A stretch of DNA of 64,000 nt from Janthinobacterium sp. 17J80-10 (GTDB lineage: Bacteria; Pseudomonadota; Gammaproteobacteria; Burkholderiales; Burkholderiaceae_D): contig NZ_CP035311.1 of the NCBI RefSeq assembly GCF_004114795.1, positions 2,852,001-2,916,000 of the forward strand. Direction: 5' to 3'. Positions 46,203 to 63,198 of the stretch are shown here, piece after piece; position 1 is the first letter of the stretch, and each line of letters starts with the position of its first letter. Below the pieces are notes generated by a model, which made no database searches, had not been told where the DNA came from, and was given only the letters and a program-made list of their open reading frames with translations. Both the position numbers and the translations under genes were made by a program.

Positions 46203-47805
46203 ATGCGATTGAGTAGCAGCACGCCCTGCTTGTGACAAGGCGCGCCCTACCGTTTCACACCATTTCAGTGTTTAGAAAAAGCCCAGCGCCTTCGGGCTAT
46301 AGCTGACCAGCAGATTCTTGGTTTGCTGATAGTGTTCCAGCATCATCTTGTGCGTCTCGCGGCCAATGCCTGATTGCTTGTAGCCGCCGAAGGCCGCATG
46401 CGCCGGATACAGGTGGTAGCAGTTGGTCCACACGCGCCCCGCCTGGATGGCGCGGCCAACGCGGAAGGCGCGCGAACCGTCACGGGTCCACAAGCCGGCG
46501 CCCAGGCCGTACAGCGTATCGTTGGCAATCGCCAGCGCCTCGGCTTCATCCTTGAAGGTGGTCACCGATACCACCGGCCCAAAGATCTCTTCCTGGAAGA
46601 TGCGCATCTTGTTGTTGCCGGCAAAGACCGTCGGCTTGACGTAGTAGCCGCCGGCCAGGTCGCCCGCAAGCTTGTTCTGCTCGCCGCCGATCAGCACCTC
46701 GGCGCCTTCCTGGCGGCCGATGTCCATGTACGACAGGATCTTTTCCATCTGTTCATTGGAGGCCTGGGCGCCGATCATGGTGCTGCTGTCGAGCGGGTTG
46801 CCCTGCTTGATGGCGGCTACCCGCGCAATGGCGCGTTCCATGAATTTCTCGTAGATCGATTCCTGTACCAGCACGCGCGACGGGCAGGTGCAGACTTCAC
46901 CCTGGTTCAGGGCAAACATCGCAAAGCCTTCCAGGCACTTGTCGAAGTAATCGTCATCGGCATCCATGATGTCGGCGAAGAAGATGTTGGGCGATTTGCC
47001 GCCCAGCTCCAGCGTCACCGGGATGATGTTTTGCGCGGCGTATTGCATGATCAGGCGGCCGGTGCCGGTTTCGCCCGTGAAGGCGATCTTGGCGATGCGC
47101 TTGCTGGTGGCCAGCGGCTTGCCCGCTTCCAGGCCAAAGCCGTTGACGATGTTGAGCACGCCCGGCGGCAGCAGGTCGCCGATCAGTTCGATCAGCACCA
47201 GGATCGAGGCCGGCGTTTGCTCGGCCGGTTTCAAGACCACGCAATTGCCGGCGGCCAGCGCAGGCGCCAGCTTCCACACCGCCATCAGGATGGGGAAATT
47301 CCAGGGAATGATCTGGCCGACCACGCCGAGGGGCTCGTGGAAGTGGTAGGCATAGGTTTCCGAATCGATCTGCGCCACGCTGCCTTCCTGGGCGCGGATG
47401 CAGCCGGCGAAGTAGCGGAAATGGTCGATCGCCAGCGGGATGTCGGCCGCCATGGTTTCGCGGATGGGCTTGCCATTGTCGATGGTCTCGGCGGTGGCGA
47501 TCAATTCCAGGTTCGCTTCCATGCGGTCGGCCATCTTGTTGAGGATGTTGGCGCGCTCGGTGAGCGAAGTCTTGCCCCAGGCAGCGCGGGCAGCGTGGGC
47601 AGCGTCCAGCGCCAGTTCGATATCCTCGGCGGTGGAGCGGGCGATTTCGCAAAACGGCTGGCCGGTGATCGGCGTGATGTTCGGGAAGTACTCACCCTTG
47701 ACCGGCGCCACGAATTTGCCGCCGATGTAATTGTCGTAGCGTTGCTTGAACGGGTTCTTGATCCCCAGCTTGCTGATGTCTGCCAAATTCATTTCTGCCT
47801 CCTAA
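46203..47805. repeat. 1.6-kb direct repeat, copy 1
   Basis: This block (aldehyde dehydrogenase copy 1 plus 68 downstream bases and the ribosome-binding site) recurs in the same orientation at 61522-63124 with a constant offset of 15,319 bases and no gap. I count about 13 substitutions, mostly in the first 450 bases; the middle of about 1 kb looks identical. Confidence 0.95.
46272..47792 (-). CDS. NAD-dependent aldehyde dehydrogenase, copy 1 (ExaC/AldB-like)
   Basis: A 506-residue aldehyde dehydrogenase oxidising acetaldehyde-type substrates to acids. It shows [19 protein letters not shown], the cofactor loop FTGETGTGR, the general base in LELGGKSPN and the catalytic cysteine in [11 protein letters not shown] (about residue 301). 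Related ExaC/AldB enzymes act after PQQ ethanol dehydrogenase. AGGAGG precedes the ATG. A near-perfect sigma-54 promoter lies 70 bases upstream (47862-47876). The protein is identical to that of copy 2 at 61591-63111. DUF779 follows. Confidence 0.95.
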
Positions 47806-47861
47806 GATTTATTGGAACTACACGTTGATTGGAACAGGTGCTGCTAACACCTTCCTCTTTC

Positions 47862-47876
47862 GCAATCGGCGTGCCA
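47862..47876 (-). promoter_or_regulatory. Sigma-54 promoter of aldehyde dehydrogenase copy 1
   Basis: On the minus strand TGGCAC-GCCGA-TTGC matches the -24/-12 consensus perfectly with correct spacing. Two ATTGGAAC repeats (47811 and 47828) lie in the leader. The nearby AcoR-like activator is the likely partner. Confidence 0.85.
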
Positions 47877-48152: not shown

Positions 48153-48983
48153 TCAGGGCCTGATCGCCGCCACGCCATGCTTCGAAAATATCTTTGCCAG
48201 TTCGCCGGACGCCGTCAGTTCATCGCTTGCGGCCTGCAGCAGCCTGGCCAGCTCGGCCTGGTCTTTTTTCACCGCCATGCCAACCACCCAGCCCTGCCGC
48301 GGCAAGCGCGGGAAGCTTACATCGTGGACTTGATAATTCGGGTCGCGCCCCACCGCCGATTCAATTTCCGAACGGTTGGCCAATACTGCGTCAAGGGCGC
48401 CGGCCTGGAGTTGCGCCAGTGCCTCGGCGGCAGTCGGATAGATCCGGACTTGCTCGCGGTACTTGCCGCCATCCTCGCCCAGCAGCACGACGGCCGAGAT
48501 TGAAATCTTTTCGACGCCGATTTTTTTTCCGGCGAGCGACGCCAGGCCGTCGTAGCTGGGCACGGTCGCCACGCGGCGCACCAGCTGCACCGCGTCGCGG
48601 TAATACGGCGCAAAAATTTCCACCTTCGGATTTTCTGCAATCAGGTGCCGGTCCACCGGCACATGCAGCAGCACGTCGGCCGGACCGTAGCCAAGGTAAT
48701 GCCCCTTCCACACCATGTTGCGCAAATCGTCGCCGAGATTTTCACCGGCCGGAAATGGCAGCAGCGCCAGCTTCAACCCCAGCTTCTTTGCCAGCGCCTC
48801 CGCCAGCTCGATATCGATGCCGCGGCCACCGGCCGAAAATGGCACCAGGTCGTCGTAGACCGCCACTTTCAAGGTACCCGACTGGCGGATTTTTTCCATG
48901 TCGGCATGAGCTGGCAGTGCCAGCGACCATGCCAGGAAAATGACCATCAACGCAGCCATGCTGCGAAAAAAGAACTTGGGCAT
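48153..48983 (-). CDS. Quinoprotein-associated periplasmic binding protein (XoxJ/MoxJ-like)
   Basis: A 276-residue solute-binding-protein fold (family 3) with a signal peptide (MAALMVIFLAWSLALPAHA). It begins the mature part with IRQSGTLKVAVYDDLVPFS. Genes of this kind without an ABC permease nearby are associated with PQQ dehydrogenases, as MxaJ/XoxJ in methylotrophs, where they may help maturation or activation of the enzyme. No permease or ATPase gene is adjacent here, fitting that view. ATG 48983 has GGAGAC upstream. It follows cytochrome c-550 by 76 bases. Confidence 0.85.
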   Translation of the reverse strand: MPKFFFRSMAALMVIFLAWSLALPAHADMEKIRQSGTLKVAVYDDLVPFSAGGRGIDIELAEALAKKLGLKLALLPFPAGENLGDDLRNMVWKGHYLGYGPADVLLHVPVDRHLIAENPKVEIFAPYYRDAVQLVRRVATVPSYDGLASLAGKKIGVEKISISAVVLLGEDGGKYREQVRIYPTAAEALAQLQAGALDAVLANRSEIESAVGRDPNYQVHDVSFPRLPRQGWVVGMAVKKDQAELARLLQAASDELTASGELAKIFSKHGVAAIRP

Positions 48984-49059
48984 GCTTGTCTCCAATGCGT
49001 TGGGCACCCGCCTGTGGCGGGCACATTGCTGAGACGGGGGATTTCCCCGCCTTGCAGGC

Positions 49060-49533
49060 TTACTTGGTTGCGCGACGCGTTTCCAGGTAGGCCTTCAGCG
49101 CCCACACCGCTTCCTGGCTCAACGTGCCCTCGAACGGCGGCATGTATACCGCGCCGTTGCGTACCTTGCCCTGACGGACCGAGCTGGCGAAATAGGCATC
49201 GTTCTCCTTGAAGCACGCCTGCTTTTTGGCCTCGTTTTTTTGTCCCATGCAGTCGCGGTCGAGCAAGCGCAGGTCGGGGGCGATCCCGCCGGAAATCGCC
49301 TCCAGCCCGTGGCAGCGCGCGCAGTTCTGGGTGTACGCCGAGGTGCCGATCCGGACTGCTTCGGTATTGCCCCGATAGGGATTTTCAGCGGCCCACTTGT
49401 CGCCCAGCTTCGGCAACGACTTGGTGTCGACTGCCTGCGGCGTGACGTCGCCATGCGCGGCGGCCGGCAGCGTTACCGCGCCCAGGGCGGCAAAGATGGA
49501 ACTGATGGCGATGATGCGTTTTGCGAGATTCAT
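49060..49533 (-). CDS. pedF: Cytochrome c-550 (PedF-like)
   Basis: A 157-residue periplasmic c-type cytochrome. The signal peptide ends near LPAAAHG. A single heme-binding motif CARCH occurs at residues 71-75, and M131 (VYMPPFEG) is the probable sixth ligand. An extra cysteine pair (DRDCMGQK, QACFKE) may form a disulfide as in PQQ ethanol dehydrogenase-linked cytochromes c-550. It should accept electrons from the PQQ alcohol dehydrogenase. AGGAGG lies eight bases before the ATG, and a sigma-54 promoter lies at 49577-49591. Confidence 0.9.
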   Translation of the reverse strand: MNLAKRIIAISSIFAALGAVTLPAAAHGDVTPQAVDTKSLPKLGDKWAAENPYRGNTEAVRIGTSAYTQNCARCHGLEAISGGIAPDLRLLDRDCMGQKNEAKKQACFKENDAYFASSVRQGKVRNGAVYMPPFEGTLSQEAVWALKAYLETRRATK

Positions 49534-49576
49534 GATGACTCCTCCTATTGGTTTTGAAATGACTGGAGGCATCTGT

Positions 49577-49591
49577 GCAATTGCCATGCCA
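49577..49591 (-). promoter_or_regulatory. Sigma-54 promoter of cytochrome c-550
   Basis: On the minus strand TGGCAT-GGCAA-TTGC matches the -24/-12 consensus with one variation (T for C). It lies 44 bases upstream of the start codon. TTGGAACAGGTGTTGC at 49631-49646 lies just upstream and may be the activator site. Confidence 0.82.
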
Positions 49592-49630
49592 AGCGTTTTA
49601 GGCAGCTTGGCACCCGGGCATTGATTCGTT

Positions 49631-49646
49631 TTGGAACAGGTGTTGC
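49631..49646. promoter_or_regulatory. TTGGAACAGG motif (candidate activator half-site)
   Basis: TTGGAACAGGTGTTGC. The core TTGGAACAGG also occurs at 47829 and 63329, always near a sigma-54 promoter of this cluster. It fits the GGAACA half of AcoR-class sites. Confidence 0.5.
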
Positions 49647-49751
49647 ATTTGCGAGCACAACAATCGCAAAAAATGAAACAGCCAACGGCGAAAACGGCCG
49701 GACAGGCTAAAAATCGCGCCGGCACTGGTGGTTCAGCGCTTTTTTACCGGG

Positions 49752-49766: not shown

Positions 49767-49809
49767 GAATTAGCGCTTGTTATGAACCGTGTTTGGAGCA
49801 GGCGCCACC

Positions 49810-51714
49810 ATGATAAAAGAATCCCGCGAACGTTCCATCGCTTACGGCCTTACCGAGAGCGCCATTCCCGACTTCAGCCCGGTGAACCGCACCGACCTGA
49901 CGCTGGCCATCGAGCAAAACCGGATCTTGCACACGCATGCGCTGCCGGTGATGGAAACCTTGTATGAGCAAATCATCAACACCCACAACATGGTCATCCT
50001 GACGGATGCGCACGGCCTGATCGTGCATACGCTGGGCGATGACGATTTCCTGGAGAAAGCCAACCGGGTCGCGCTGCAGCCGGGGGTGGCCTGGTCGGAA
50101 CAGAGCAAGGGCACCAATGCGATCGGCACTGCCATCGCCGAACAGGCGCCGGCCCAGGTCCACGCCAACGAGCATTATCTGATTGCCAATCATTTCCTGA
50201 CCTGCTCAGCAGCGCCGATCTTCGATTCGGAAGGCAGCGTGATCGGCGTACTCGACGTCACCGGCGACCAGAACAGCTTTCACAAGCACACCATGGGGCT
50301 GGTGCGCATGTCGGCGCAGATGATCGAAAACCAGATGTTTTCCGCCGCCTTTTCGGACGCTATCACGCTGCGTTTCCATAGCCGGCCGGAATTCATCGGC
50401 ACTCTGATGGAGGGCATCGCCGCCTTTACCCAGGGCGGGCGCTTTTTGTCAGCCAACCGCTGCGGCCTGTTCCAGCTCGGCTTGCCTCTCAACTCGCTGA
50501 AGATGCATACCTTCAGTTCGCTGTTCGGCTTGCCGGTGTCAGCCCTGTTCGACCATTACCGCACCGCCTCTCCGGGCTTGCTGAACTTGTGCATGCATAG
50601 CGGGGTTCGGGTCTATGCGCGTGCACAATTGCATCGGGCGAACATGTTCTTTCAGGCAGAGCCGTTGCCCGCTGGCGCATCCGAGCGCAGCGCACCGCCG
50701 CAGGCACAGGCTGCACAGCGCGTCGACCAGCAGGCGACACGCCGCCTGTCGAGCCTGCATTACCTCAATACCGGCGATGCCCAGATCGCCGCCCTGATCG
50801 AGAAAGTGAACAAAGTGCTCGGACGCGATATCGCGATCCTGGTCACCGGCGAAACCGGCACCGGCAAGGAATTGCTGGCGCAAGCCATCCACAATGATTC
50901 GCCGCGCGCAAACAGCCCCTTCGTTGCCGTCAATTGCGCCTCGATTCCCGAGACGCTGATTGAATCGGAGTTGTTCGGCTATGAAGACGGCGCCTTCACC
51001 GGCGCCCGCAAGAAAGGCAGCGTCGGCAAGATCCTGCAAGCCAATGGCGGCACGCTGTTCCTGGATGAAATCGGCGACATGCCCCTGAGCCTGCAGGCGC
51101 GCCTCTTGCGCGTGCTGCAGGAGCGCATGGTGACGCCGCTGGGCAGCAGCCGTTCGATCCCCGTCAACGTAGCGCTGATCTGCGCCACGCACCGCAACCT
51201 GCGCGAACTGATATCCGCCGGCGTGTTTCGCGAAGACTTGTACTACCGCCTGAACGGCTTGGTCGTGAAACTGCCGCCCTTGCGCGAGCGCAGCGACCTG
51301 GAAGTGGTGGTCCAGCGCTTGATCGTCTCGGAAGCCGATGGCATGCAGTGCACCGTGTCGGCCGAGGTATTGCAGTTATTCAAGCGGCACAACTGGCCCG
51401 GCAACTGCCGCCAGCTGACCAATTTGCTGCGCACCGCCATCGTCATGGTCGGCGATGACCGCGAAATCCGTCGCGAGCACTTGCCGGACGACTTCCTGGA
51501 CGATATCGACGCAGTGCGGCAAGGCGAGAGCACGCAAAGCACTCGGATCGGCGCAGAGGTATACGCGCCGATGCCGGCATCGGCCACGCTCGACGATGTC
51601 GAAATATCGCTGATCCAGAAAGCCCTGGCAGCGCACGGCGGCAATATTTCAGCCACCGCGCGCGCGCTGGGGGTTTCCCGCAACAAGATTTACCGCAAGA
51701 TCCCGCAGCAATAA
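49810..51714 (+). CDS. AcoR-like sigma-54 activator, paralogue 2 (alcohol oxidation regulator)
   Basis: A 634-residue GAF / AAA+ / Fis-HTH activator. The sensor half contains LTDAHGLIVHTLGDDDFLEK and WSEQSKGTNAIGTAI, the AAA+ part TGETGTGKE and GAFTGARKKG, and the HTH ISATARALGVSRNKIYRK. It is highly similar along its whole length to 37355-39373, with the AAA+ region nearly identical. ATG 49810 follows a GGAGCAGG. It is divergent from cytochrome c-550 and surrounded by sigma-54 promoters, so it very likely activates this alcohol oxidation regulon. The inducing ligand, perhaps an alcohol or aldehyde, is unknown. Confidence 0.93.
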   Translation: MIKESRERSIAYGLTESAIPDFSPVNRTDLTLAIEQNRILHTHALPVMETLYEQIINTHNMVILTDAHGLIVHTLGDDDFLEKANRVALQPGVAWSEQSKGTNAIGTAIAEQAPAQVHANEHYLIANHFLTCSAAPIFDSEGSVIGVLDVTGDQNSFHKHTMGLVRMSAQMIENQMFSAAFSDAITLRFHSRPEFIGTLMEGIAAFTQGGRFLSANRCGLFQLGLPLNSLKMHTFSSLFGLPVSALFDHYRTASPGLLNLCMHSGVRVYARAQLHRANMFFQAEPLPAGASERSAPPQAQAAQRVDQQATRRLSSLHYLNTGDAQIAALIEKVNKVLGRDIAILVTGETGTGKELLAQAIHNDSPRANSPFVAVNCASIPETLIESELFGYEDGAFTGARKKGSVGKILQANGGTLFLDEIGDMPLSLQARLLRVLQERMVTPLGSSRSIPVNVALICATHRNLRELISAGVFREDLYYRLNGLVVKLPPLRERSDLEVVVQRLIVSEADGMQCTVSAEVLQLFKRHNWPGNCRQLTNLLRTAIVMVGDDREIRREHLPDDFLDDIDAVRQGESTQSTRIGAEVYAPMPASATLDDVEISLIQKALAAHGGNISATARALGVSRNKIYRKIPQQ

Positions 51715-51754: not shown

Positions 51755-54148
51755 ATGCCCCACTCTACCCTGCCGCGATCACGGCGCCGGCACGCCACTG
51801 CCTGTACGCCGCCCCTGCTTGCCGCCGTCCTCTGTGTTCCTGCAATGGCGCAGACAGGCGAGCCTGCGGCGCGACCTGAAACCACCCTGGCGCCGATCGC
51901 AGTCGTGGCAAAGATGTCTGGGCCGGGAATCGGGATTGAACGCGACCTGCTGCCGTATCCGGTGCAGACCGCGTCCGCCGGCGCGCTGCGCCAGGCGCAG
52001 GCGGGCAACCTGATCGACTTCATGGCGACCAGCCTGACCGGCGTCAACGTCAACGAAGTCCAGGGCAGTCCGTTTCAGAACGACATCACCTTCCGCGGCT
52101 TTCGCGCTTCGCCGATCCTCGGCTCGGCCCAGGGCCTGTCGGTGTACCTCGACGGCGTGCGCGTCAACGAGCCGTTCGGCGACGTGGTCAACTGGGACAT
52201 GCTGCCGGAGGCGGCGATCGCCGACCTGACGCTGGTGCCGGGGTCGAACCCCTTGTATGGCTTTAATACGCTGGGTGGCGCGCTGGCTTTCACTACCAAG
52301 TCGGGCCGGACCCATCCCGGCATGGAAGCCGAAATCTCCTACGGCAGTAATGCCAGAAAGCGCATCGACGCCGGCTACGGGGCGCGCTTCGACAATGGCA
52401 TGCACGCCTTCGTCGCCACCACCCTGTTCGACGAAAATGGCTGGCGCGAGCATTCGGCCGGACGCATGGGCAACCTGTACGCCAAGGTCGGCCGCGATTC
52501 GGGCCAGACCCAATGGGATATCTCGGCACTGCATGGCGAAAGCAAGCTGATCGGCAACGGCCTCTTGCCGAGCTACCGCTGGGCCAATGGCACGCTGGCG
52601 AACGGCTTGTATGAAAGCGACCGGCGCGCGGCCTACACCCACCCGGATCAAACCCGCAACCGACTGCAGCAGGCAGCCTTCAACCTGCGTCACTGGATCG
52701 ATGATGACACCGAACTGTCGGCGCTGGCCTATGTGCGCCGCAGCCGGCGCGACACGCTCAACGGCGACGTCAACGGCGATTACGAAGCGTATGCGGAAGA
52801 TTGCGAAGACGGCTTCAATGCCGACGGCAGCGCGGCAGAGCCGGACGACTGCGGCTTTACCGCGGCGCAAGGGGCGGCGCAGCACAATGCGGTATTGAAC
52901 CGCACGCATACCCGCCAGACCAGCGCCGGCCTGGCCCTGAACCTGTCGCGCCAGACCGGGCGCCATCAATTCGCTGTCGGCGCCAGCCTCGACCAGAGCC
53001 GCGTCAGTTTCGCGCAAACCCGGCAAGACGCCTGGTTCGACGCCGGTCGCGGCGTACAGCCGGACGCGCTGGCGCCGGAAGTGGCGTCGTCGTCCGTCAC
53101 CGGCAGTTCACAGGCGTTCGGACTGTACGCCACCGATACCTGGCAGCTGGCGCCGGCGACCCACCTGACGGCATCGGCGCGCTGGAACCACGCCCGCGTC
53201 TCCAATACGCTGACGGGCCAGAACGGCCTGCAGCCGAAGGAGACTTTCAATTACAGCAAGCTCAATCCGGCCATCGGCCTGACGCACAAGCTGTCGCCCG
53301 GCTTGACCGTGTTTGGCGGGGTGTCGCAAAGCAACAGGGTGCCAACCGTGATCGAGCTCGGCTGCGCCGATCCGCTGCAAGCGTGCGTCCTGCCCACCGG
53401 CTTGCAGTCGGACCCTTACCTGAAGCAGGTGGTGTCACGCACCGTCGAGGCTGGCGTGCGCTGGCAAGCCGGCGGCGCGACGCTGTCGGCCTCGCTGTAC
53501 CGCGCAATCAACCGCGACGATATCCTGTTCCTGCGCGCCGGCTCGACCCAACTGGGCTACTTTGCCAACTTCGATCGCACCCGCCACCAGGGCCTGGATC
53601 TTTCGGCGCGCAAAGAGTGGAAGGCGTTCACGCTGCAAGCGAATTACAGCCTGCTCGACGCCACCTACGATGCAAATGGCCGCCTGTTTGCGGGCGAGCG
53701 CACCATCAATGTCGTGCCTGGCACGCCAATCGCCGGCTTGCCGCGCCATACGCTGAAACTTGCGCTGGACTGGAAGCCGGCGCCGGCGTGGCTGCTGGGC
53801 GGCGAAATGGTCGCAGTGTCATCGCTGACGACGCAGGGCAACGAAGATGGCTTGCGCACCGACCCGAAAGCAGGCGCCACACCGAAAACTGCCGACTGGC
53901 GCATCCGCGGGCATGCCGTTTTCAACCTGCGCGGCAGTTACCGCAGCAGCAAGCAACTTGAACTGTTTGCGCGCGTCCAGAATGTATTCAACCGCAAGTA
54001 TGAAACCTATGGCGCGATCGGCGCAGACATGTTCCCCGACGGTCAACTACTGCAGCCGCATGTAGCAGCACAAGACGCCGGCGACGCCCGCTTCGTCGCC
54101 CCCGGTGCGCCGCGCTCGATCAAGGTCGGCATGCGTTACCACTTTTAG
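51755..54148 (+). CDS. TonB-dependent receptor in the PQQ/alcohol cluster (candidate lanthanide or PQQ receptor)
   Basis: A 797-residue outer-membrane receptor. A signal peptide (ends near VPAMAQTG), plug domain (DITFRGFRASPILGSAQGL, VYLDGVRVNEPFGDVVNWDM, GSNPLYGFNTLGGALAF) and barrel ending SIKVGMRYHF are visible. A predicted surface loop at residues 338-366 is strongly acidic and contains an EF-hand-like pattern (DVNGDYEAYAED) followed by a Cys350/Cys366 pair enclosing further Asp/Glu. It begins 40 bases after the activator gene. With a probable lanthanide-type alcohol dehydrogenase in the cluster, metal or metallophore uptake is a good hypothesis; PQQ or another siderophore is possible. 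Confidence 0.85.
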   Translation: MPHSTLPRSRRRHATACTPPLLAAVLCVPAMAQTGEPAARPETTLAPIAVVAKMSGPGIGIERDLLPYPVQTASAGALRQAQAGNLIDFMATSLTGVNVNEVQGSPFQNDITFRGFRASPILGSAQGLSVYLDGVRVNEPFGDVVNWDMLPEAAIADLTLVPGSNPLYGFNTLGGALAFTTKSGRTHPGMEAEISYGSNARKRIDAGYGARFDNGMHAFVATTLFDENGWREHSAGRMGNLYAKVGRDSGQTQWDISALHGESKLIGNGLLPSYRWANGTLANGLYESDRRAAYTHPDQTRNRLQQAAFNLRHWIDDDTELSALAYVRRSRRDTLNGDVNGDYEAYAEDCEDGFNADGSAAEPDDCGFTAAQGAAQHNAVLNRTHTRQTSAGLALNLSRQTGRHQFAVGASLDQSRVSFAQTRQDAWFDAGRGVQPDALAPEVASSSVTGSSQAFGLYATDTWQLAPATHLTASARWNHARVSNTLTGQNGLQPKETFNYSKLNPAIGLTHKLSPGLTVFGGVSQSNRVPTVIELGCADPLQACVLPTGLQSDPYLKQVVSRTVEAGVRWQAGGATLSASLYRAINRDDILFLRAGSTQLGYFANFDRTRHQGLDLSARKEWKAFTLQANYSLLDATYDANGRLFAGERTINVVPGTPIAGLPRHTLKLALDWKPAPAWLLGGEMVAVSSLTTQGNEDGLRTDPKAGATPKTADWRIRGHAVFNLRGSYRSSKQLELFARVQNVFNRKYETYGAIGADMFPDGQLLQPHVAAQDAGDARFVAPGAPRSIKVGMRYHF

Positions 54149-54165: not shown

Positions 54166-55173
54166 TTACTTCTGCATCACATCCCTGATTGCCAGGCGCA
54201 GCGCCGCGAGGACCTTCGGGTCGGCCGGCGTATGCGTGCCATCCTGCACCCAGCGCAAGTCGGCATGCGGCATGAAGCGCTTCAGGCGTTGCGCATTTTC
54301 AGGCGGGCAGACCAGATCATGCGTGCCATGGATCAGGATGGTCGGGATATGCGCAGTGCGTCGCGCGCATCGAAACAGCGCGCGTTCGCTGGTGAAACAG
54401 GCTTGCGACAGGTAATGCGCCTGCAAGCGGTACTTCGTAATCGTCTGCGCCAAAACGCTTTCCGGCGGCGTCGATCCTAGGCCGCCAGGCACCGTCCGTG
54501 AATTCGCGAGTTGTCCCGTTTGCGCAGCCGAAGCCATCATCCGGCGCATGATCGCTTCTTCATAATCGTGCCAGCGGCGGGCTGCATCATTGCGCTGTTC
54601 ACATGTTCCGTTTTGTAACAGGCCTGTCAGAGATTGGAGCACATTGCGCTGTTGCGCCACGGACCAGCCGGCCGTAAGGCGAGCCCAGGCATCAGGCACT
54701 TCAGCTTGCAGGGACTGAAAAAAACGGTGGACCTCGCGTGCGCTTGCCAGAAATGCACCGCGCAGCACCAGCCCGTGCACGGCCGCCGGATAGCGCCCGG
54801 CATAACTCAACCCGAGCGTCGCGCCCCATGATCCGCCCACCACCAGCCAGCGCGGAATGCGCAGGTGAACGCGCACCTGTTCGATATCTTCAACCAGGTG
54901 CGCGGTGTGATTGTGCGCGGTTTCGCCCAGCGGCACACTCTTGCCGGCGCCGCGCTGATCGAGCAGCACCACGCGCTGGCGCGACAGGTCGAACCAGTCC
55001 AGCATCGCCGGCTTGCAACCGCTGCCGGGGCCGCCATGCAGCACCACGGCCGCCGGCGCGCCCGGTTCGCCATATTGGGCGCAATACAGGCGATGGCCAC
55101 CGCCGACCGCGATATGGCTTTCGCAAAATGGCGCCCTGATGTGCGCCGGCATGGAATTTGCGTTGATAGGCAT
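54166..55173 (-). CDS. pip: Proline iminopeptidase-like alpha/beta hydrolase
   Basis: A 335-residue S33-family peptidase. It has the oxyanion-hole HGGPG (VVLHGGPGSGC), the nucleophile elbow GGSWGATLGL and DQRGAGKSVP, all typical of prolyl aminopeptidases; the late D (LIHGTHDLVCPP) and H (DGTHTPAD) complete the triad. The start at 55173 or an internal ATG at 55152 is possible. It is divergent from pqqA. A role in trimming PqqA-derived peptide is conceivable because a peptidase is needed in PQQ synthesis, but this family is not established for that step. Confidence 0.85.
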   Translation of the reverse strand: MPINANSMPAHIRAPFCESHIAVGGGHRLYCAQYGEPGAPAAVVLHGGPGSGCKPAMLDWFDLSRQRVVLLDQRGAGKSVPLGETAHNHTAHLVEDIEQVRVHLRIPRWLVVGGSWGATLGLSYAGRYPAAVHGLVLRGAFLASAREVHRFFQSLQAEVPDAWARLTAGWSVAQQRNVLQSLTGLLQNGTCEQRNDAARRWHDYEEAIMRRMMASAAQTGQLANSRTVPGGLGSTPPESVLAQTITKYRLQAHYLSQACFTSERALFRCARRTAHIPTILIHGTHDLVCPPENAQRLKRFMPHADLRWVQDGTHTPADPKVLAALRLAIRDVMQK

Positions 55174-55258: not shown

Positions 55259-55333
55259 ATGCAATGGACCAAGCCTGAATTCACCGACTTGCGCTTCGGC
55301 TTTGAAATCACGATGTACATCGCCAACCGTTAA
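55259..55333 (+). CDS. pqqA: PqqA precursor peptide
   Basis: A 24-residue peptide beginning MQWTKPEFTDLRFGFE and ending TMYIANR. The E-x3-Y motif (EITMY) supplies the glutamate and tyrosine that are cross-linked by PqqE to form PQQ. AGGAG lies six bases before the ATG. It is the first gene of pqqABCDE. Confidence 0.97.
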   Translation: MQWTKPEFTDLRFGFEITMYIANR

Positions 55334-55371: not shown

Positions 55372-56345
55372 GTGCCGGCAGCATTATTCACTGAATACTG
55401 TCCCGACTGGCGCATCATGAAAATCATCGTACTGGGATCATCCGCCGGCGGCGGCTTCCCGCAGTGGAATTGCAATTGTCGAAATTGCGCAGGCGTTCGC
55501 ACAGGCGCCATCCGGGCGCAGGCGCGCACGCAATCATCCATCGCCGTGTCGAGCAATGGCAGCGACTGGCTCCTGATCAACGCCTCACCCGACATCCTGG
55601 CGCAAATCAGGGCAACGCCGGCATTACAGCCGAAACGACACGCCCGCGACACCGGCATCAAGGCGGTGCTGCTGATGGATGCCCAGATCGACCATGTCAC
55701 CGGACTGCTGATGCTGCGCGAAGGCGCACCGATCCCGCTGTACTGCACACCTTCAGTGTGGGACGACCTGACCGACGGCTTGCCACTGGTGCCGGTCCTG
55801 TCGCATTACTGCGGCGTGCAATGGCATCCGATCGCAGTCGGCGGCGATGGCAACGCGGAAAGCAATGCCTTCCAGGTGCCGGCGCTTGACGGCATCCGTT
55901 TGACACCATTGGCCTTGCTGAGCAAGGCCCCCCCTATTCACCGCACCGCGAACAGCCCCTGCCCGGCGACAATCTCGGCCTCATGATCGAAGATACCACG
56001 ACCGGCAAGCGCCTGTTCTATGCGCCGGGACTTGGCCAGATCGAGCCGCATGTGCAAGCCGCAATGCAACAGGCCGACTGCGTGCTGGTCGACGGCACGC
56101 TCTGGACCGCCGACGAAATGATCCGCCAGGGATTTTCGAAAAAAATGGCGGCCGACATGGGCCACCTGCCCCTGTCCGGCGCCGGCGGCATGATCGAGCT
56201 GCTCGACGCCATCGGCGGGCAGCGCAAGATTCTCATCCACATCAACAATACCAATCCGATCCTCGACGAGGATTCGGTCGAATGCGCGGACCTTGCCCAA
56301 CGCGGCATCGAGGTTGCCTACGACGGCATGGAGATCTCATTATGA
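55372..56345 (+). pseudogene. pqqB: pqqB, split by a frameshift in a C7 tract
   Basis: PqqB is a metallo-beta-lactamase-fold protein of about 300 residues, a hydroxylase in PQQ synthesis. Here the first frame (55372-55986, 204 codons) reads well until [12 protein letters not shown] and then becomes nonsense. The second frame (55983-56345) resumes with [18 protein letters not shown]. At 55928-55934 there are seven C; eight would restore [17 protein letters not shown] and a full-length protein. The MBL metal motif (DAQIDHVTGL) is in the first part. It is a real mutation, sequencing error or slippage site. The fragments overlap by ATGA. Confidence 0.88.
55928..55934 (+). other. C7 homopolymer at the pqqB frameshift
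   Basis: Seven consecutive C. One additional C restores the conserved PqqB reading frame. Homopolymers of this length are common sites of sequencing error and of strand slippage. Confidence 0.85.
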
Positions 56346-57058
56346 ATACCGCCATCCAGAATGACACTGAAGCCAGGCAGCCGTGGAGCCGCGCCGAGTT
56401 CGAGCGCCGCCTGCGCGACAGGGGCGAGGCTTATCATATTCACCACCCCTTCAATGTCAGCATGCGCGAAGGGCGCCTGAGCGCCGATCAGATACGCGGC
56501 TGGGTTGCCAACCGCTTTTACTACCAGGTCAAGATCCCGCAAAAGGATGGCGCCATCATCGCCAATTGCCCGGACCGCGAAACGCGCAGGAAGTGGGTGC
56601 TGCGCATCCTCGACCACGATGGCTGGGAGGACAACCCGGGCGGCATCGAAGCCTGGTCCCGGCTGGGCGAAGCCGTCGGCATCGACCGTGACCTGCTGTG
56701 GTCGCAAAAGCTGGTCGTGCCGGGGGTGCGCTTTGCGGTCGACGCCTATGTCAATTTCGCGCGCAGTGCGCCGTGGCAGGAAGCGGTGTGCTCGTCGCTG
56801 ACGGAAATGTTCGCGCCGAAGATCCACCAGGACCGGCTTGCCACCTGGCCGCAGCATTATCCGTGGATCGAGCCGGCGGGATTGCAATACTTCCGCAGCC
56901 GCATTTCGCTGGCCGAGCGCGACGTGGTACACGGCTTGCAAGTCACGCTGGACCATTTCACGACGCACACGCAACAGCAGCGCGCGCTGGAAATCCTGCA
57001 ATTCAAGCTCGACGTGCTGTGGTCGATCTCGGACGCGATCGCACTGGAGTATCCGTGA
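56342..57058 (+). CDS. pqqC: Pyrroloquinoline-quinone synthase PqqC
   Basis: A 238-residue cofactor-less oxidase performing the last ring-closing oxidation of PQQ synthesis. The helical TENA/THI-4-like fold has [47 protein letters not shown] and [16 protein letters not shown]. Length matches the family. Its ATG overlaps the stop of the second pqqB frame by four bases, so its translation is coupled to a frame that only the frameshifted or restarted product would reach. Confidence 0.96.
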
Positions 57059-57107: not shown

Positions 57108-57371
57108 ATGAATGCCCTGTCTGCCACGCCCAAGCTCTCCCGGCTGTTCCGCCTGCAATGGGAGCCGACGCAAAACAATTATGTCTTGCTCTACCCGGAG
57201 GGCATGGTCAAGCTGAACCAGAGCGCCGCTGAAATCCTGAAGCGCTGTGACGGCGCGCGCGACATCCCCAGGATCGTCGACGACCTGGAACAGACCTTTG
57301 CCACCACGGGACTTTCCGGGCAAGTCAACGATTTCCTGCAATCGGCCCACCAGCGAGGCTGGCTTGTCTAG
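57108..57371 (+). CDS. pqqD: PqqD peptide chaperone
   Basis: An 87-residue RRE-domain protein that binds PqqA and presents it to PqqE. Recognised by [30 protein letters not shown] and the C-terminal [12 protein letters not shown]. Two tandem ATGs (57105, 57108); the second is better spaced from AAAGG. It overlaps the pqqE start. Confidence 0.95.
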
Positions 57372-58545
57372 CGCCAACGCAATCGACGCCGGCGCCGCCG
57401 GACAGAGTGCAGCCGTCAGGCCGCCCTTGTGGCTGCTGGCCGAGCTGACCTACCGTTGCCCGCTGCATTGCGTGTTCTGCTACAACCCGCTGAACTATGC
57501 CGAGAACCGCAATGAACTGAGCACTGCGCAGTGGATCGACGTCATGCGCCAGGCACGCGCGCTCGGCGCAGCGCAGCTCGGCTTTTCCGGCGGCGAGCCA
57601 TTGTTGCGCGACGACCTGGAAGAGTTGATCGCCGAAGGCTACCAGCTCGGCTACTACACCAACCTGATCACGTCCGGCATCGGCCTGACCGAGGCGCGCA
57701 TTGCGCACATGAAGGAACTCGGCCTCGACCACATCCAGTTGTCGTTCCAGGACTCGACCCGCGAAATGAACGATTTCCTGACCAGCACCAGGACTTTCGA
57801 CCTGAAGTCGCGCGTGGCGAAATTGATCAAGCAATACGACTACCCGATGGTCCTGAACGTGGTGCTGCACCGCTACAACCTCGACCATGTCGGCCGCATC
57901 ATCGACATGGCGCTGGAAATGGGGGTCGAATACCTGGAACTGGCCAATACCCAGTACTACGGCTGGGCGCTGGCAAACCGCGCGCAGCTTTTGCCGACGC
58001 GCGAGCAGCTGGAGCGCGCGGAAAGCGTGGTCAATGCCTATCGCGCGAAGATCGGCACGCAAATGCGCATCCTGTTCGTGGTGCCGGATTATTTCGAGGA
58101 GCGCCCAAAGGCTTGCATGAATGGCTGGGGCTCGGTGTTCCTTGCGGTCGCAGCCGATGGCGCGGCGCTGCCCTGCCATGCGGCCAAGTCGCTGCCCGGC
58201 TTTGATTTTCCCAATGTGACGCAGCAGGACTTGCGCACCATCTGGTATGACAGCGACGCCTTCAACCGCTACCGCGGCGATTCGTGGATGAAGGATCCGT
58301 GCCGCACCTGCCCCGAAAAAGAAAAGGACTTTGGCGGCTGCCGCTGCCAGGCGCTGGCCCTGACCGGCGCGGCCGAGAATGCCGACCCGGTGTGCGCCAA
58401 GTCGCCCCACCATGACCAGGTCAAAAACATCGTCCTGCAGGCGCAGCAGTCGAAGACTGCGGCGGCCAACCCGCAGCCGCTGCTGTTTCGCAGCGATGCG
58501 AACTCCCTGAGGAACAGTCTTGGGGCTGAAAAAAACGCCGGCTGA
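57364..58545 (+). CDS. pqqE: PqqA peptide cyclase (radical SAM PqqE)
   Basis: A 393-residue radical SAM/SPASM enzyme that links Glu and Tyr of PqqA. The SAM cluster motif is [13 protein letters not shown] (C-x3-C-x2-C); the C-terminal SPASM cysteines are in [23 protein letters not shown] and [12 protein letters not shown] 57364 is the probable start: it overlaps the pqqD stop by eight bases and gives the usual length. An extension to 57247 would overlap most of pqqD. It is the last gene of pqqABCDE. Confidence 0.95.
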
Positions 58546-58613: not shown

Positions 58614-58629
58614 TGGCACGGCGATTGCA
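58614..58629 (+). promoter_or_regulatory. Sigma-54 promoter of the beta-propeller gene
   Basis: TGGCAC-GGCGA-TTGCA is a perfect -24/-12 match, 34 bases before the ATG at 58663. Confidence 0.88.
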
Positions 58630-58662: not shown

Positions 58663-59625
58663 ATGCCATTCCACCCCACCTTGCCGCGCCTGGCCGCAGC
58701 CCTGCAGCTGGCCTGGCCGCTGTTATGCGCGCCGGCGCTGGCCGCGCCGTTTGCCTACGTGCCGAATGAAAAATCCGGCACGGTCAGCGTCATCGATACT
58801 GCAAGCGATTCTGTGGTCGGCGAGATTGCGGCCGGCCAGCGGCCGCGCGGCATCGCCATCGACACTGCCTCGGGTGCCCTGTTCATCACCGATGCCACTG
58901 CCAGCGCGCTGCTGATGATCGATACAGCCGAACGTCGCGTGCTGCGGCAGGCGCCGCTGGGCGCATCGCCCGAAGGCGTGAGCCTCTCGCCGAACCGCAA
59001 GCTGGTGGCCGCCGCCGTCGAGGAAAGCAATAGCGTCACGCTCAAGGATGCCGTCAGCGGCGCGCACATCGCCGATATCAAGGTCGAAGGGCACAACCCG
59101 GAGCATGCGGTATTTTCCCCCGATGGCCGCGAGCTCTACGTCAGCGCCGAAGATGCCGAACAGATCGACATCATCGACGTCGCCAGGCAGCGCCAGGTGG
59201 CGTCGGTCGCGGTCGGCCGGCGCCCGCGCGGCATCGGCTTTTTGCCCGATGGCAGTCGCGCCTACGTCGCCTGCGAACTGTCCGACACGGTGTATGCAAT
59301 CGACGTCGCCAGCCGCAAGGTCGTCGCCACGATTGCTGCCGGCAAGAGCGCCAACGGGATCACGGTCCATCCCAGCGGCAAGCGAGTCTATGTCTCCAAC
59401 GGCCGCGACGCCACGGTCATGGTGATCGATACCGCCAGCAACAAGGTGGTCAACACCATCGCTGTCGGCAAGCGCCCATGGAACATGGCGCTGACCCCCG
59501 ACGGCAACAAGCTGTATGTCGCCAACGGCCGCTCCAACAGCGTGTCGGTGATCGATACCAGGACCGGGTGCGTCACTGCCGAGATCACGGTGGGCGAATT
59601 GCCCTGGGGCGTGGTCATCCGGTAA
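58663..59625 (+). CDS. PQQ-dependent catabolism-associated YVTN beta-propeller protein
   Basis: A 320-residue exported protein with a signal peptide (LQLAWPLLCAPALAAPFA) and seven YVTN-type repeats (AYVPNEKSGTVSVIDT, LYVSAEDAEQIDIIDV, VYVSNGRDATVMVIDT, LYVANGRSNSVSVIDT). Proteins of this group occur with PQQ alcohol dehydrogenases and may assist the periplasmic enzyme; no biochemical function is proven. It has its own sigma-54 promoter (58614-58629), separate from pqqABCDE, tying it to the alcohol regulon. A bidirectional terminator follows. Confidence 0.9.
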   Translation: MPFHPTLPRLAAALQLAWPLLCAPALAAPFAYVPNEKSGTVSVIDTASDSVVGEIAAGQRPRGIAIDTASGALFITDATASALLMIDTAERRVLRQAPLGASPEGVSLSPNRKLVAAAVEESNSVTLKDAVSGAHIADIKVEGHNPEHAVFSPDGRELYVSAEDAEQIDIIDVARQRQVASVAVGRRPRGIGFLPDGSRAYVACELSDTVYAIDVASRKVVATIAAGKSANGITVHPSGKRVYVSNGRDATVMVIDTASNKVVNTIAVGKRPWNMALTPDGNKLYVANGRSNSVSVIDTRTGCVTAEITVGELPWGVVIR

Positions 59626-59719: not shown

Positions 59720-61477
59720 TTACTTGCCGGCCAGCTTGAAGACCCAGACCGAACCGCCCTGTTCGAGGAAGTTCACCTTCTTGGCGACTTCGCCACCCCA
59801 CAGCGGCACGGCGCCGCCCCAACCGGACACCACTGCGACGTACTGCGTGTCGCCTTCCTTCCAGGTCACCGGGGGCGCGACCACGCCGGAGCCGGTCTGG
59901 AACTTCCACATTTCCTTGCCGGTCTTGGCGTCGACTGCTTTCAGGAAGCCTTCCGGCGTGCCGTAGAACACCAGGTCGCCAGCGGTGGCCATCACGCCCC
60001 CCCACAGCGGCGCATTGTTCTTGACTTCCCAGACAATCTTGCCGCTCTTCGGATCGACCGCGCGCATGACGCCGATATAGTCTTCGTTCAATGGCTTGAT
60101 GGTGAAGCCAGCGCCCAGATAGGCGGCGCCCTTCTTGTAGGCGACCGGCTCGTTCCAGATATCCATGCCCCATTCGTTGGCCGGCACATAGAACAGGTTG
60201 GTCTTCGGGCTATACGCCATCGGCATCTGGTTTTTGCCGCCCAGGAAAGATGGCGCCGAGAACACGGTCTTGCCCTTCTTGCCATCCTGTCCCTTGGTCG
60301 GGTCGCCCGGGCGGCCTTCCGGAATCAAGTTTGGCCGGCCGGTCTTCAGGTCGATGCTGGAAGCCCAGGTGATCTTGTTGACGAACGGGAAAGCATTCTG
60401 CAATTTGCCATTCTTGGCATCGATCACGTAGAAAAAGCCATTGCGGTCAGCCTTGCCGCCCATGCGCTTGCCATTCATGTCGAAGGTGATGAATTCATTG
60501 ACACCATCAAAATCCCAGCCATCGTTGGGCGTGGTCTGGTAATGCCACTTGATCTTGCCGGTCGCGACATCGATGGCCACCGTCGAGGCCGAATACAGGT
60601 TGTCGCCGGGACGCAGATGGCTGTTCCACGGCGCCGGATTGCCGGTGCCGAAATAAGCCAGGCCGGTGGAAGCATCAAAGGTGCCGCCGAGCCAGGTGGC
60701 AGCGCCGCCCGATTTCCACAGGTCGCCCGGCCAGGTGGCGTTGGTGGTGCCGGAAATGCCATTCTCGATTTCCTTGCCATCCTTGTCGTACTTGTAGCCC
60801 ATGTGGCCTTCGACCATCGGCCGTACCCAGACCAGTTCGCCGGTGCGCGGATTGCGCGCCTCGACCCGGCCGATCACGCCGAATTCACCGCCGGAGACAC
60901 CGGTCAGGAGCAAGCCCTTGGCAATCAGCGGCGCTGCCGAAGCCGAATAGCCGGCGTGGTAGTCGTCGATCTTTTCCTTCCAGACGACTTCGCCGGTATC
61001 CTGGTTCAGGGCCACCAGTTGCGCGTCGAGCGTGGCGAAGATCACCAGGTTGTCATACAGCGCCGCGCCGCGGTTGATGACGTCACAGCAAGGCATGATG
61101 CCGTCCGGCAGGCGGTGCTCGTATTTCCACAGCTTGGCGCCAGTCTTGACATCCAGCGCATAGATCCGCGAGTAGGAGGCGGTGACGAACATCTTGCCGT
61201 TGTAGATGACCGGCTGCGATTCCTGGCCGCGCTGTTTTTCGCCGCCGAACGAAAACGACCATGCCGGCACCAGTTTCGAGACGGTCTTGGAATTGATCTG
61301 GGTCAGCGGCGAAAAACGCTGGCCCTGCTGGCCCATACCCCAGGACAGCACATTGTTCGGCGCCTTGGCGTCGTTTTCAATCATCGCATCGGTCACGCCT
61401 GCGGCGTGTACTGCGGCTGACGCGAACGAGACCGCCAGCGCGGCGCCGATCACGGAAATGTTGAATTGCTTTTGCAT
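59720..61477 (-). CDS. PQQ-dependent alcohol dehydrogenase, predicted lanthanide type (PedH/ExaF-like)
   Basis: A 585-residue periplasmic quinoprotein oxidising primary alcohols to aldehydes. Signal peptide to about A25. The vicinal disulfide C130-C131 (MPCCDV) is present. Putative metal and PQQ ligands are E198 (GGEFG), N280 (GTGNPAPWN) and catalytic D322 (GWDFDG). D324 lies two residues after the catalytic aspartate; an Asp there is the marker of lanthanide-dependent enzymes (XoxF, PedH, ExaF), whereas calcium enzymes have a small residue. AAGGAG precedes the ATG. It is 113 bases after aldehyde dehydrogenase copy 2 with no promoter of its own evident, so the two probably form one operon. 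Confidence 0.93.
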
Positions 61478-61521: not shown

Positions 61522-63124
61522 ATGCGGTTGAGTAGCAGCGCGCCCTGCTTGTGACAAGGCGCGCCCTACCGTTTCACACCATTTCAGTGTTTAGAAAAAG
61601 CCCAGCGCCTTCGGGCTGTAGCTGACCAGCAGGTTCTTGGTTTGCTGATAGTGTTCCAGCATCATCTTGTGCGTCTCGCGGCCAATGCCCGACTGCTTGT
61701 AGCCGCCGAAGGCCGCATGCGCCGGATACAGGTGGTAGCAGTTGGTCCACACGCGCCCCGCCTGGATGGCGCGGCCAACGCGGAAGGCGCGCGAGCCGTC
61801 GCGGGTCCACAAGCCGGCGCCCAGGCCGTACAGCGTGTCGTTGGCAATCGCCAGCGCCTCGGCTTCATCCTTGAAGGTGGTCACCGATACCACCGGCCCG
61901 AAGATCTCTTCCTGGAAGATGCGCATCTTGTTGTTGCCGGCAAATACCGTCGGCTTGACGTAGTAGCCGCCGGCCAGGTCGCCCGCAAGCTTGTTCTGCT
62001 CGCCGCCGATCAGCACCTCGGCGCCTTCCTGGCGGCCGATGTCCATGTACGACAGGATCTTTTCCATCTGTTCATTGGAGGCCTGGGCGCCGATCATGGT
62101 GCTGCTGTCGAGCGGGTTGCCCTGCTTGATGGCGGCTACCCGCGCAATGGCGCGTTCCATGAATTTCTCGTAGATCGATTCCTGTACCAGCACGCGCGAC
62201 GGGCAGGTGCAGACTTCACCCTGGTTCAGGGCAAACATCGCAAAGCCTTCCAGGCACTTGTCGAAGTAATCGTCATCGGCATCCATGATGTCGGCGAAGA
62301 AGATGTTGGGCGATTTGCCGCCCAGCTCCAGCGTCACCGGGATGATGTTTTGCGCGGCGTATTGCATGATCAGGCGGCCGGTGCCGGTTTCGCCCGTGAA
62401 GGCGATCTTGGCGATGCGCTTGCTGGTGGCCAGCGGCTTGCCCGCTTCCAGGCCAAAGCCGTTGACGATGTTGAGCACGCCCGGCGGCAGCAGGTCGCCG
62501 ATCAGTTCGATCAGCACCAGGATCGAGGCCGGCGTTTGCTCGGCCGGTTTCAAGACCACGCAATTGCCGGCGGCCAGCGCAGGCGCCAGCTTCCACACCG
62601 CCATCAGGATGGGGAAATTCCAGGGAATGATCTGGCCGACCACGCCGAGGGGCTCGTGGAAGTGGTAGGCATAGGTTTCCGAATCGATCTGCGCCACGCT
62701 GCCTTCCTGGGCGCGGATGCAGCCGGCGAAGTAGCGGAAATGGTCGATCGCCAGCGGGATGTCGGCCGCCATGGTTTCGCGGATGGGCTTGCCATTGTCG
62801 ATGGTCTCGGCGGTGGCGATCAATTCCAGGTTCGCTTCCATGCGGTCGGCCATCTTGTTGAGGATGTTGGCGCGCTCGGTGAGCGAAGTCTTGCCCCAGG
62901 CAGCGCGGGCAGCGTGGGCAGCGTCCAGCGCCAGTTCGATATCTTCGGCGGTGGAGCGGGCGATTTCGCAAAACGGCTGGCCGGTGATCGGCGTGATGTT
63001 CGGGAAGTACTCACCCTTGACCGGCGCCACGAATTTGCCGCCGATGTAATTGTCATAGCGTTGCTTGAACGGGTTCTTGATCCCCAGCTTGCTGATGTCT
63101 GCCAAATTCATTTCTGCCTCCTAA
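61522..63124. repeat. 1.6-kb direct repeat, copy 2
   Basis: Second copy of the block at 46203-47805. Its left end contains GCGCGCC..GGCGCGC, a perfect inverted repeat (61537-61563) that is damaged by one base in copy 1. The repeat ends exactly between the ribosome-binding site and the leader, so the promoters of the two copies are different sequences. Confidence 0.95.
61591..63111 (-). CDS. NAD-dependent aldehyde dehydrogenase, copy 2 (ExaC/AldB-like)
   Basis: A 506-residue enzyme with amino-acid sequence identical to copy 1 (46272-47792); all of the roughly eleven nucleotide differences are silent. Motifs are the same: [18 protein letters not shown] and catalytic cysteine in [11 protein letters not shown]. 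It has its own unrelated leader with a sigma-54 promoter at 63184-63198 and an upstream TGTTC-N7-GAACA site. It is followed by the PQQ alcohol dehydrogenase, so this copy is in operon with the alcohol oxidation step, while copy 1 is followed by DUF779. Confidence 0.95.
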
Positions 63125-63183
63125 ACGATATGAGATGCGTCTGATTTTTTTAAATTAAGTGCGACGAGCGCACAGGGGTTATG

Positions 63184-63198
63184 GCAAATGCCGTGCCA
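63184..63198 (-). promoter_or_regulatory. Sigma-54 promoter of aldehyde dehydrogenase copy 2 / alcohol dehydrogenase
   Basis: On the minus strand TGGCAC-GGCAT-TTGC is a perfect -24/-12 match, 73 bases upstream of the start codon. Confidence 0.87.

Follow-up and report, generated by a model that had tools for sequence, protein, structure and literature searches.

The TonB-dependent receptor encoded in the window (the whole stretch of 64,000 nucleotides analyzed here) is best read as a diverged LutH-family receptor, a variant of the known LutH type. This receptor likely imports lanthanide, free or chelated, for a periplasmic ExaF-type dehydrogenase, and would do so without the Lut/Ped inner-membrane ABC importer. 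Judging from sequence and genome comparisons, its substrate is very probably a lanthanide. The initial annotation had proposed a candidate lanthanide uptake receptor, and this is supported by the membership in a LanM-linked LutH family, the co-occurrence with lanthanide-type dehydrogenases, the coupling to pedG, and the presence of a separate PqqU in the genome. For the further proposal of a distinct uptake system, a divergent LutH-family member is the better description.

Genetic context of the receptor

The window comes from a complete genome of 4.02 Mb. The reading frame of the receptor is open and intact and encodes a TonB plug (PF07715) followed by a TonB-receptor barrel (PF00593). The surrounding genes are listed in Table 1. 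The neighboring quinoprotein scored 762 bits against TIGR03075 (cut-off of 480) and carries an extra Asp two residues past the catalytic Asp, in the form WDFDG (pattern WD[FY]DG), in agreement with its initial description as lanthanide type. The receptor had also been placed between the cluster activator and pqqABCDE. This order is nearly correct, but an alpha/beta-hydrolase gene that had been omitted lies between the receptor and pqqA; the receptor of B. multivorans is likewise adjoined by an alpha/beta-hydrolase.

Table 1. Features of the receptor and of the cluster around it (positions in the window)
Feature	Coordinates	Strand	Remarks
PedG/MoxJ-like periplasmic binding protein	48153..49007	-	In 25 other loci, its orthologue runs into the receptor start
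PedF-type cytochrome c550	49060..49725	-	TIGR04494, over cut-off
Sigma-54-dependent activator (GAF, AAA+, Fis HTH)	49789..51714	+	Ends 40 bases before the receptor
TonB-dependent receptor, LutH family (best reading), 797 aa	51755..54148	+	Intact ORF, domain models, tree, AlphaFold2
Plug domain, residues 66-176	51950..52282	+	PF07715
Acidic, putatively Cys-closed loop 4 (extracellular in the model), residues 338-366, C350 and C366	52766..52852	+	
Family motif in extracellular loop 7, residues 534-556, E-L-x-C537...C544...D553-P-x-L	53354..53422	+	
Prolyl-aminopeptidase-like alpha/beta-hydrolase, between receptor and pqqA	54166..55173	-	
pqqA	55259..55333	+	
pqqB, two frames, frameshift in C run near 55930	55417..56345	+	
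pqqC	56336..57058	+	TIGR02111, over cut-off
pqqD	57108..57371	+	Identified from sequence
pqqE, start approximate	57370..58545	+	TIGR02109, over cut-off
YVTN/PedA2-like beta-propeller	58663..59625	+	TIGR03866, below cut-off
ExaF/PedH-type PQQ alcohol dehydrogenase	59720..61477	-	Lanthanide-type Asp motif at about 60495-60532

Other features of the region were recorded. The frameshift in pqqB either arose in sequencing or assembly or is a genuine lesion affecting PQQ synthesis. Two aldehyde dehydrogenase genes (46272-47792 and 61591-63111) flank the cluster; their DNA is 99.3% identical, and the identity ends at the gene ends. Four sites of the sigma-54 type (-24/-12), each with at most 1 mismatch, are located at 58614-58629 (+), 49576-49591 (-), 47861-47876 (-), and 63183-63198 (-), upstream of the propeller gene, of pedF, and of the two aldehyde dehydrogenase genes. 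At this stringency, none was found before the receptor or the activator; with up to 2 mismatches, the total number of matches was no higher than expected by chance.

Relationship of the receptor to LutH

The best distant plasmid matches of the receptor included, among others, proteins of Methylobacterium nodulans and of a Methylococcaceae methanotroph. The M. nodulans receptor matches over the full length (30% identity, E of 5e-83), and its gene adjoins that of a lanmodulin, which has four DPDxDGTxD-type loops. LutH was identified here by synteny, through LanM or the lut cluster. The orthologue of the receptor adjoins LanM in Methylobacterium-like genomes (loci L199, L201, and L206), and L199 shows the whole lut order: a binding protein (TIGR03863), a propeller (TIGR03866), an ABC ATPase, an ABC-2 permease, the receptor, and LanM. 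This order agrees with that of the published lut cluster, whose LutH is subject to repression by La (PMC7391723). In Bradyrhizobium-like genomes, the receptor precedes an XoxF-like dehydrogenase, in agreement with the weakly similar lutH reported in Bradyrhizobium (PMC12628762).

A tree of 89 sequences, made by a quick method and with few outgroups, grouped the 81 members of the family on a single branch, separate from PqqU, BtuB, and a second receptor of the window's genome. To our knowledge, the substrates measured in this family are confined to the LutH group of Methylobacteriaceae and Methylosinus. The family also shares a motif in loop 7, of the general form E[LMIVA]xC-x3-14-C-x6-14-D[PA]x[LM], which was found in 136 of 138 members and in none of 8 outgroup sequences; a first version was too strict (95/138), and the relaxed form was fitted on the same data that gave the higher count. 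No solved structure of LutH was found when searching by sequence. The AlphaFold2 model of the receptor, built from 67 related sequences, reached a pLDDT of 88.2 and a pTM of 0.87, and in a fold comparison it matched BtuB, FhuA, PqqU, and FecA nearly alike (Z of 36 to 39). Since nearly all TonB receptors score alike by fold, this comparison does not decide the substrate.

Two further loci were noted while surveying the family. A gammaproteobacterial locus (L212) brings together, within 19 kb, a LutH-like receptor, a full ABC set of the lutA/B/E/F type, PedF, PedG, and a lanthanide-type ExaF. A genome of the same genus (G003) has partial receptor copies (L016 and L019) in opposite directions at both ends of a 9.6-kb contig (C3); one of them has stop codons, and the arrangement is either a duplication or an assembly artifact.

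Co-occurrence with lanthanide-type dehydrogenases

The presence of the receptor was compared over whole genomes with that of a DNA pattern representing active sites of the lanthanide type, whose reversed control gave 0 matches. Among 245 Burkholderiaceae genomes, 76 carry the receptor, 82 the lanthanide motif, and 67 both. When the receptor was shuffled within genera, this overlap was reached in 0 of 20,000 trials (mean of 43.6, maximum of 54); such co-occurrence is no proof of transport. The motif occurs without the receptor in 15 genomes and the receptor without the motif in 9, and therefore the pairing is not obligate. The same tendency was seen in a small sample of the class (274 genomes, mostly one or two per family), in which 16 of 18 genomes with the receptor have the motif, against 13 of the 256 others. 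There, the receptor goes with the lanthanide motif and not with PQQ dehydrogenases as a whole: it is found in 16 of the 29 PQQ-dehydrogenase genomes with the motif, in 2 of the 24 without it, and in none of the 221 genomes without a PQQ dehydrogenase. As for the two carriers in this sample that do not have the DNA motif, G199 has a PQQ dehydrogenase reading WDYDE, and G056 has one reading WDYT. The motif was present in 49 of 50 carrier genomes.

The association extends to gene order. Many Oxalobacteraceae have the arrangement PedF-PedG-receptor-(PqqU)-propeller-ALDH-DUF779-ExaF, and in the 25 loci where the pedG stop and the receptor start overlap, they do so by 4 or 1 bases, a sign that the two genes are translated jointly. 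In some carrier loci, the stretch examined contains no dehydrogenase gene.

The acidic loop of the receptor

The main argument of the initial annotation was an acidic, EF-hand-like loop. Residues 338 to 366, DVNGDYEAYAEDCEDGFNADGSAAEPDDC, hold the 11 Asp/Glu that had been counted, in 29 residues rather than 28, and the Cys pair that had been pointed out is present (Cys350 and Cys366); these two residues are a putative pair closing the loop. No other 29 consecutive residues of the receptor are as acidic as this segment, and an equally acidic stretch arose in 90 of 20,000 composition shuffles. The likeness to an EF-hand is partial: the D/N/E spacing is there (D338-x-N340-x-D342-x-E344-...-D349), but Tyr343 replaces the invariant Gly of the canonical DxDxDG-x5-E, and no EF-hand Pfam model matched. 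In the AlphaFold2 model, the segment is confidently placed (pLDDT of 94 to 97) between strands 319-339 and 379-401 on the long-loop side. It thus corresponds in the model to extracellular loop 4 and lies neither inside the barrel nor in the periplasm.

The distribution of the loop was followed in a homologue set of 80 named relatives, taken with their flanks from a genome scan. In 31 of the loci surveyed, the window's near twin (L039) left out, an ExaF of at least 75% identity is encoded nearby. The Cys-closed acidic loop is present in 14 of these 31 homologues and absent from 17, some of the loop-poor ones retaining only NGD and a few acidic residues. Loop-less homologues within the cluster are what the initial annotation had itself named as a refutation. 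On this count, the loop was rejected as the deciding feature and fails as the main argument. In the LutH clade, each of the 14 members carries, in the same place, an acidic loop that contains two cysteines (e.g., DGNDGNFENC...LCFEDDG). Loop 4 is thus an old trait of the family, common to the LutH clade and losable, and as such neither diagnostic nor new. It may serve to concentrate cations but, being absent from close relatives within the same cluster, cannot be the essential binding site.

Alternative ligands

TonB receptors usually take chelates, and the receptor of methylolanthanin is responsive to iron and groups with the receptors of iron siderophores (PMC11996626). A chelator could accordingly be the real ligand, the receptor importing a metal-chelator complex in the form of a lanthanophore or of an iron siderophore that also carries lanthanide. 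We regard this as unlikely. The siderophore receptor model TIGR01783 gave 96.7 bits, against a cut-off of 223.5, no other curated siderophore model reached its cut-off, and solved siderophore receptors are only weakly similar in sequence. A siderophore receptor was rejected on these grounds, and there is no orthology to one, which the initial annotation had named as a refuting condition. The tracking of lanthanide enzymes speaks, moreover, against a role in iron uptake alone. A lanthanide chelate as the ligand is compatible with lanthanide import by a LutH-family receptor.

The ligand might instead be another metal or small molecule of PQQ-dependent alcohol metabolism, such as calcium, copper for the oxidases, or a PQQ-metal complex, the link to lanthanide being indirect. 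A side branch of the family in Ideonella dechloratans (L175), where the gene stands near MbnP/MbnM-like copper genes and not near a dehydrogenase, would fit such a role, as would the carrier loci without a dehydrogenase nearby. This reading is nevertheless quite improbable, given that the receptor goes with the lanthanide motif and not with PQQ dehydrogenases at large, that its nearest characterized relatives are lanthanide receptors, and that calcium is not scarce.

A PqqU-like receptor, recapturing or scavenging PQQ for the quinoprotein, had been named as the main alternative, with PqqU as a point of comparison. This comparison turned out to disfavor it. The published signature of PqqU consists of Y99 (aromatic), R304, and R365 (PMC12124388). 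L122, S330, and F419 stand at these positions in the receptor (the register at R304 being uncertain, with arginines nearby), the PqqU residues are not conserved at these sites in the family, and the receptor falls on a separate branch; all 30 separate PqqU receptors examined keep F99, R304, and R365. The PqqU model NF041535 gave 99 bits against a cut-off of 1200, below which genuine Burkholderiales PqqU also fall, with 530 to 958. A separate PqqU is encoded in 49 of 50 carrier genomes, including that of the window (G000:C1:1106909-1108927). It lies in the same stretch as the receptor in 36 of 80 loci, mostly directly after and facing it, inside the ExaF cluster. The position near pqqABCDE speaks for PQQ import, and PqqU ranks first among the Foldseek matches by E-value and among solved relatives by sequence profile. 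PqqC was not above the cut-off in 25 of 49 carrier genomes, so that about half of the carriers must obtain PQQ from outside; all 25 of them have PqqU. PQQ users without the lanthanide motif have the receptor only rarely, in the 2 of 24 genomes given above. A PQQ receptor was hence rejected as the leading reading, and we consider it the least probable of the ligands weighed here. It is natural to conclude that each half of the cofactor has its own receptor, PqqU for PQQ and the LutH-family receptor for lanthanide.

Among Oxalobacteraceae (36 loci among L061 to L133), the gene of the YVTN propeller usually adjoins that of PqqU, like yncE beside pqqU in E. coli. By this analogy, the arrangement suggests that the propeller belongs to PQQ handling.

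Proposed function and comparison with known systems

In lanthanide import by the LutH-family receptor, its outer loops would capture the lanthanide ligand, and TonB-driven displacement of the plug would let the ligand pass to the periplasm. There, the lanthanide would be handed to ExaF, possibly with the participation of PedG, and would join PQQ in the periplasmic ExaF-type alcohol dehydrogenase of the same cluster. The genome of the window gave only matches of about 22 bits to the LutA/PedA1 binding protein (TIGR03863, cut-off of 414); lacking this protein, it would use the metal in the periplasm only. The Oxalobacteraceae tested also lack LutA/PedA1, weak matches aside. Three Cupriavidus have it, and Ideonella-type genomes match it below the cut-off. 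Its absence, unlike the studied lut and ped systems, and the identity to LutH of only about 30% both count against the proposed function.

Several known systems resemble the one described here. LutH of Methylorubrum extorquens AM1 (META1p1785) and of Methylosinus (CQW49_RS02145) would belong to the same receptor family, through the LanM-linked Methylobacterium receptors, with which the window's receptor shares the acidic, putatively Cys-closed loop 4, the Cys motif of loop 7, and the link to lanthanide-type dehydrogenases. It differs from LutH by its low identity, by the lack of LanM and Lut ABC genes beside it and of LutA in the genome, and by its setting, an ethanol-dehydrogenase/pqq cluster that includes a sigma-54 activator. 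PqqU (YncD), the PQQ importer of E. coli, is likewise a 22-strand TonB receptor and the nearest solved relative by sequence profile, but the window's receptor is without its signature residues and on a separate branch, and a genuine PqqU is encoded elsewhere in the same genome. The ped cluster of Pseudomonas putida (PedF, PedG, PedH, and PedA1A2BC) has in common with the window PedF, PedG, a lanthanide-type dehydrogenase, and a PedA2-like propeller. The situation is otherwise the reverse: in P. putida the inner-membrane importer is present and a LutH homologue is missing, whereas here the receptor is present and PedA1 absent. The lack of LutH in P. putida has been reported, and its outer-membrane lanthanide route stated to be unresolved (PMC12997753). 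LanA of Methylotuvimicrobium buryatense, similar by description, is a TonB receptor needed for the lanthanide response (PMC12482762).

Taken further, these comparisons allow a more tentative proposal, which may or may not hold. Many ExaF clusters of Oxalobacteraceae might use paired receptors, PqqU for PQQ and the LutH-family receptor for lanthanide. The cells would bring in both halves of the cofactor and join them in the periplasm, with no PQQ synthesis of their own in about half of the carriers, and with no Lut/Ped importer. Loop 4 would then be an ancestral lanthanide-gathering element that was lost in some lineages.

For the entry of lanthanide through the outer membrane of bacteria outside the classical methylotrophs, the present analysis puts forward a candidate family of receptors, which occurs together with lanthanide enzymes in Burkholderiales and in the class at large. 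In an ocean survey, divergent lanthanide receptors could not be found for want of a signature (PMC11996626). The loop-7 motif is a candidate sequence motif for this receptor family, and in the clusters that encode both PqqU and a LutH-family receptor, the import of each half of the cofactor would be separable gene by gene.
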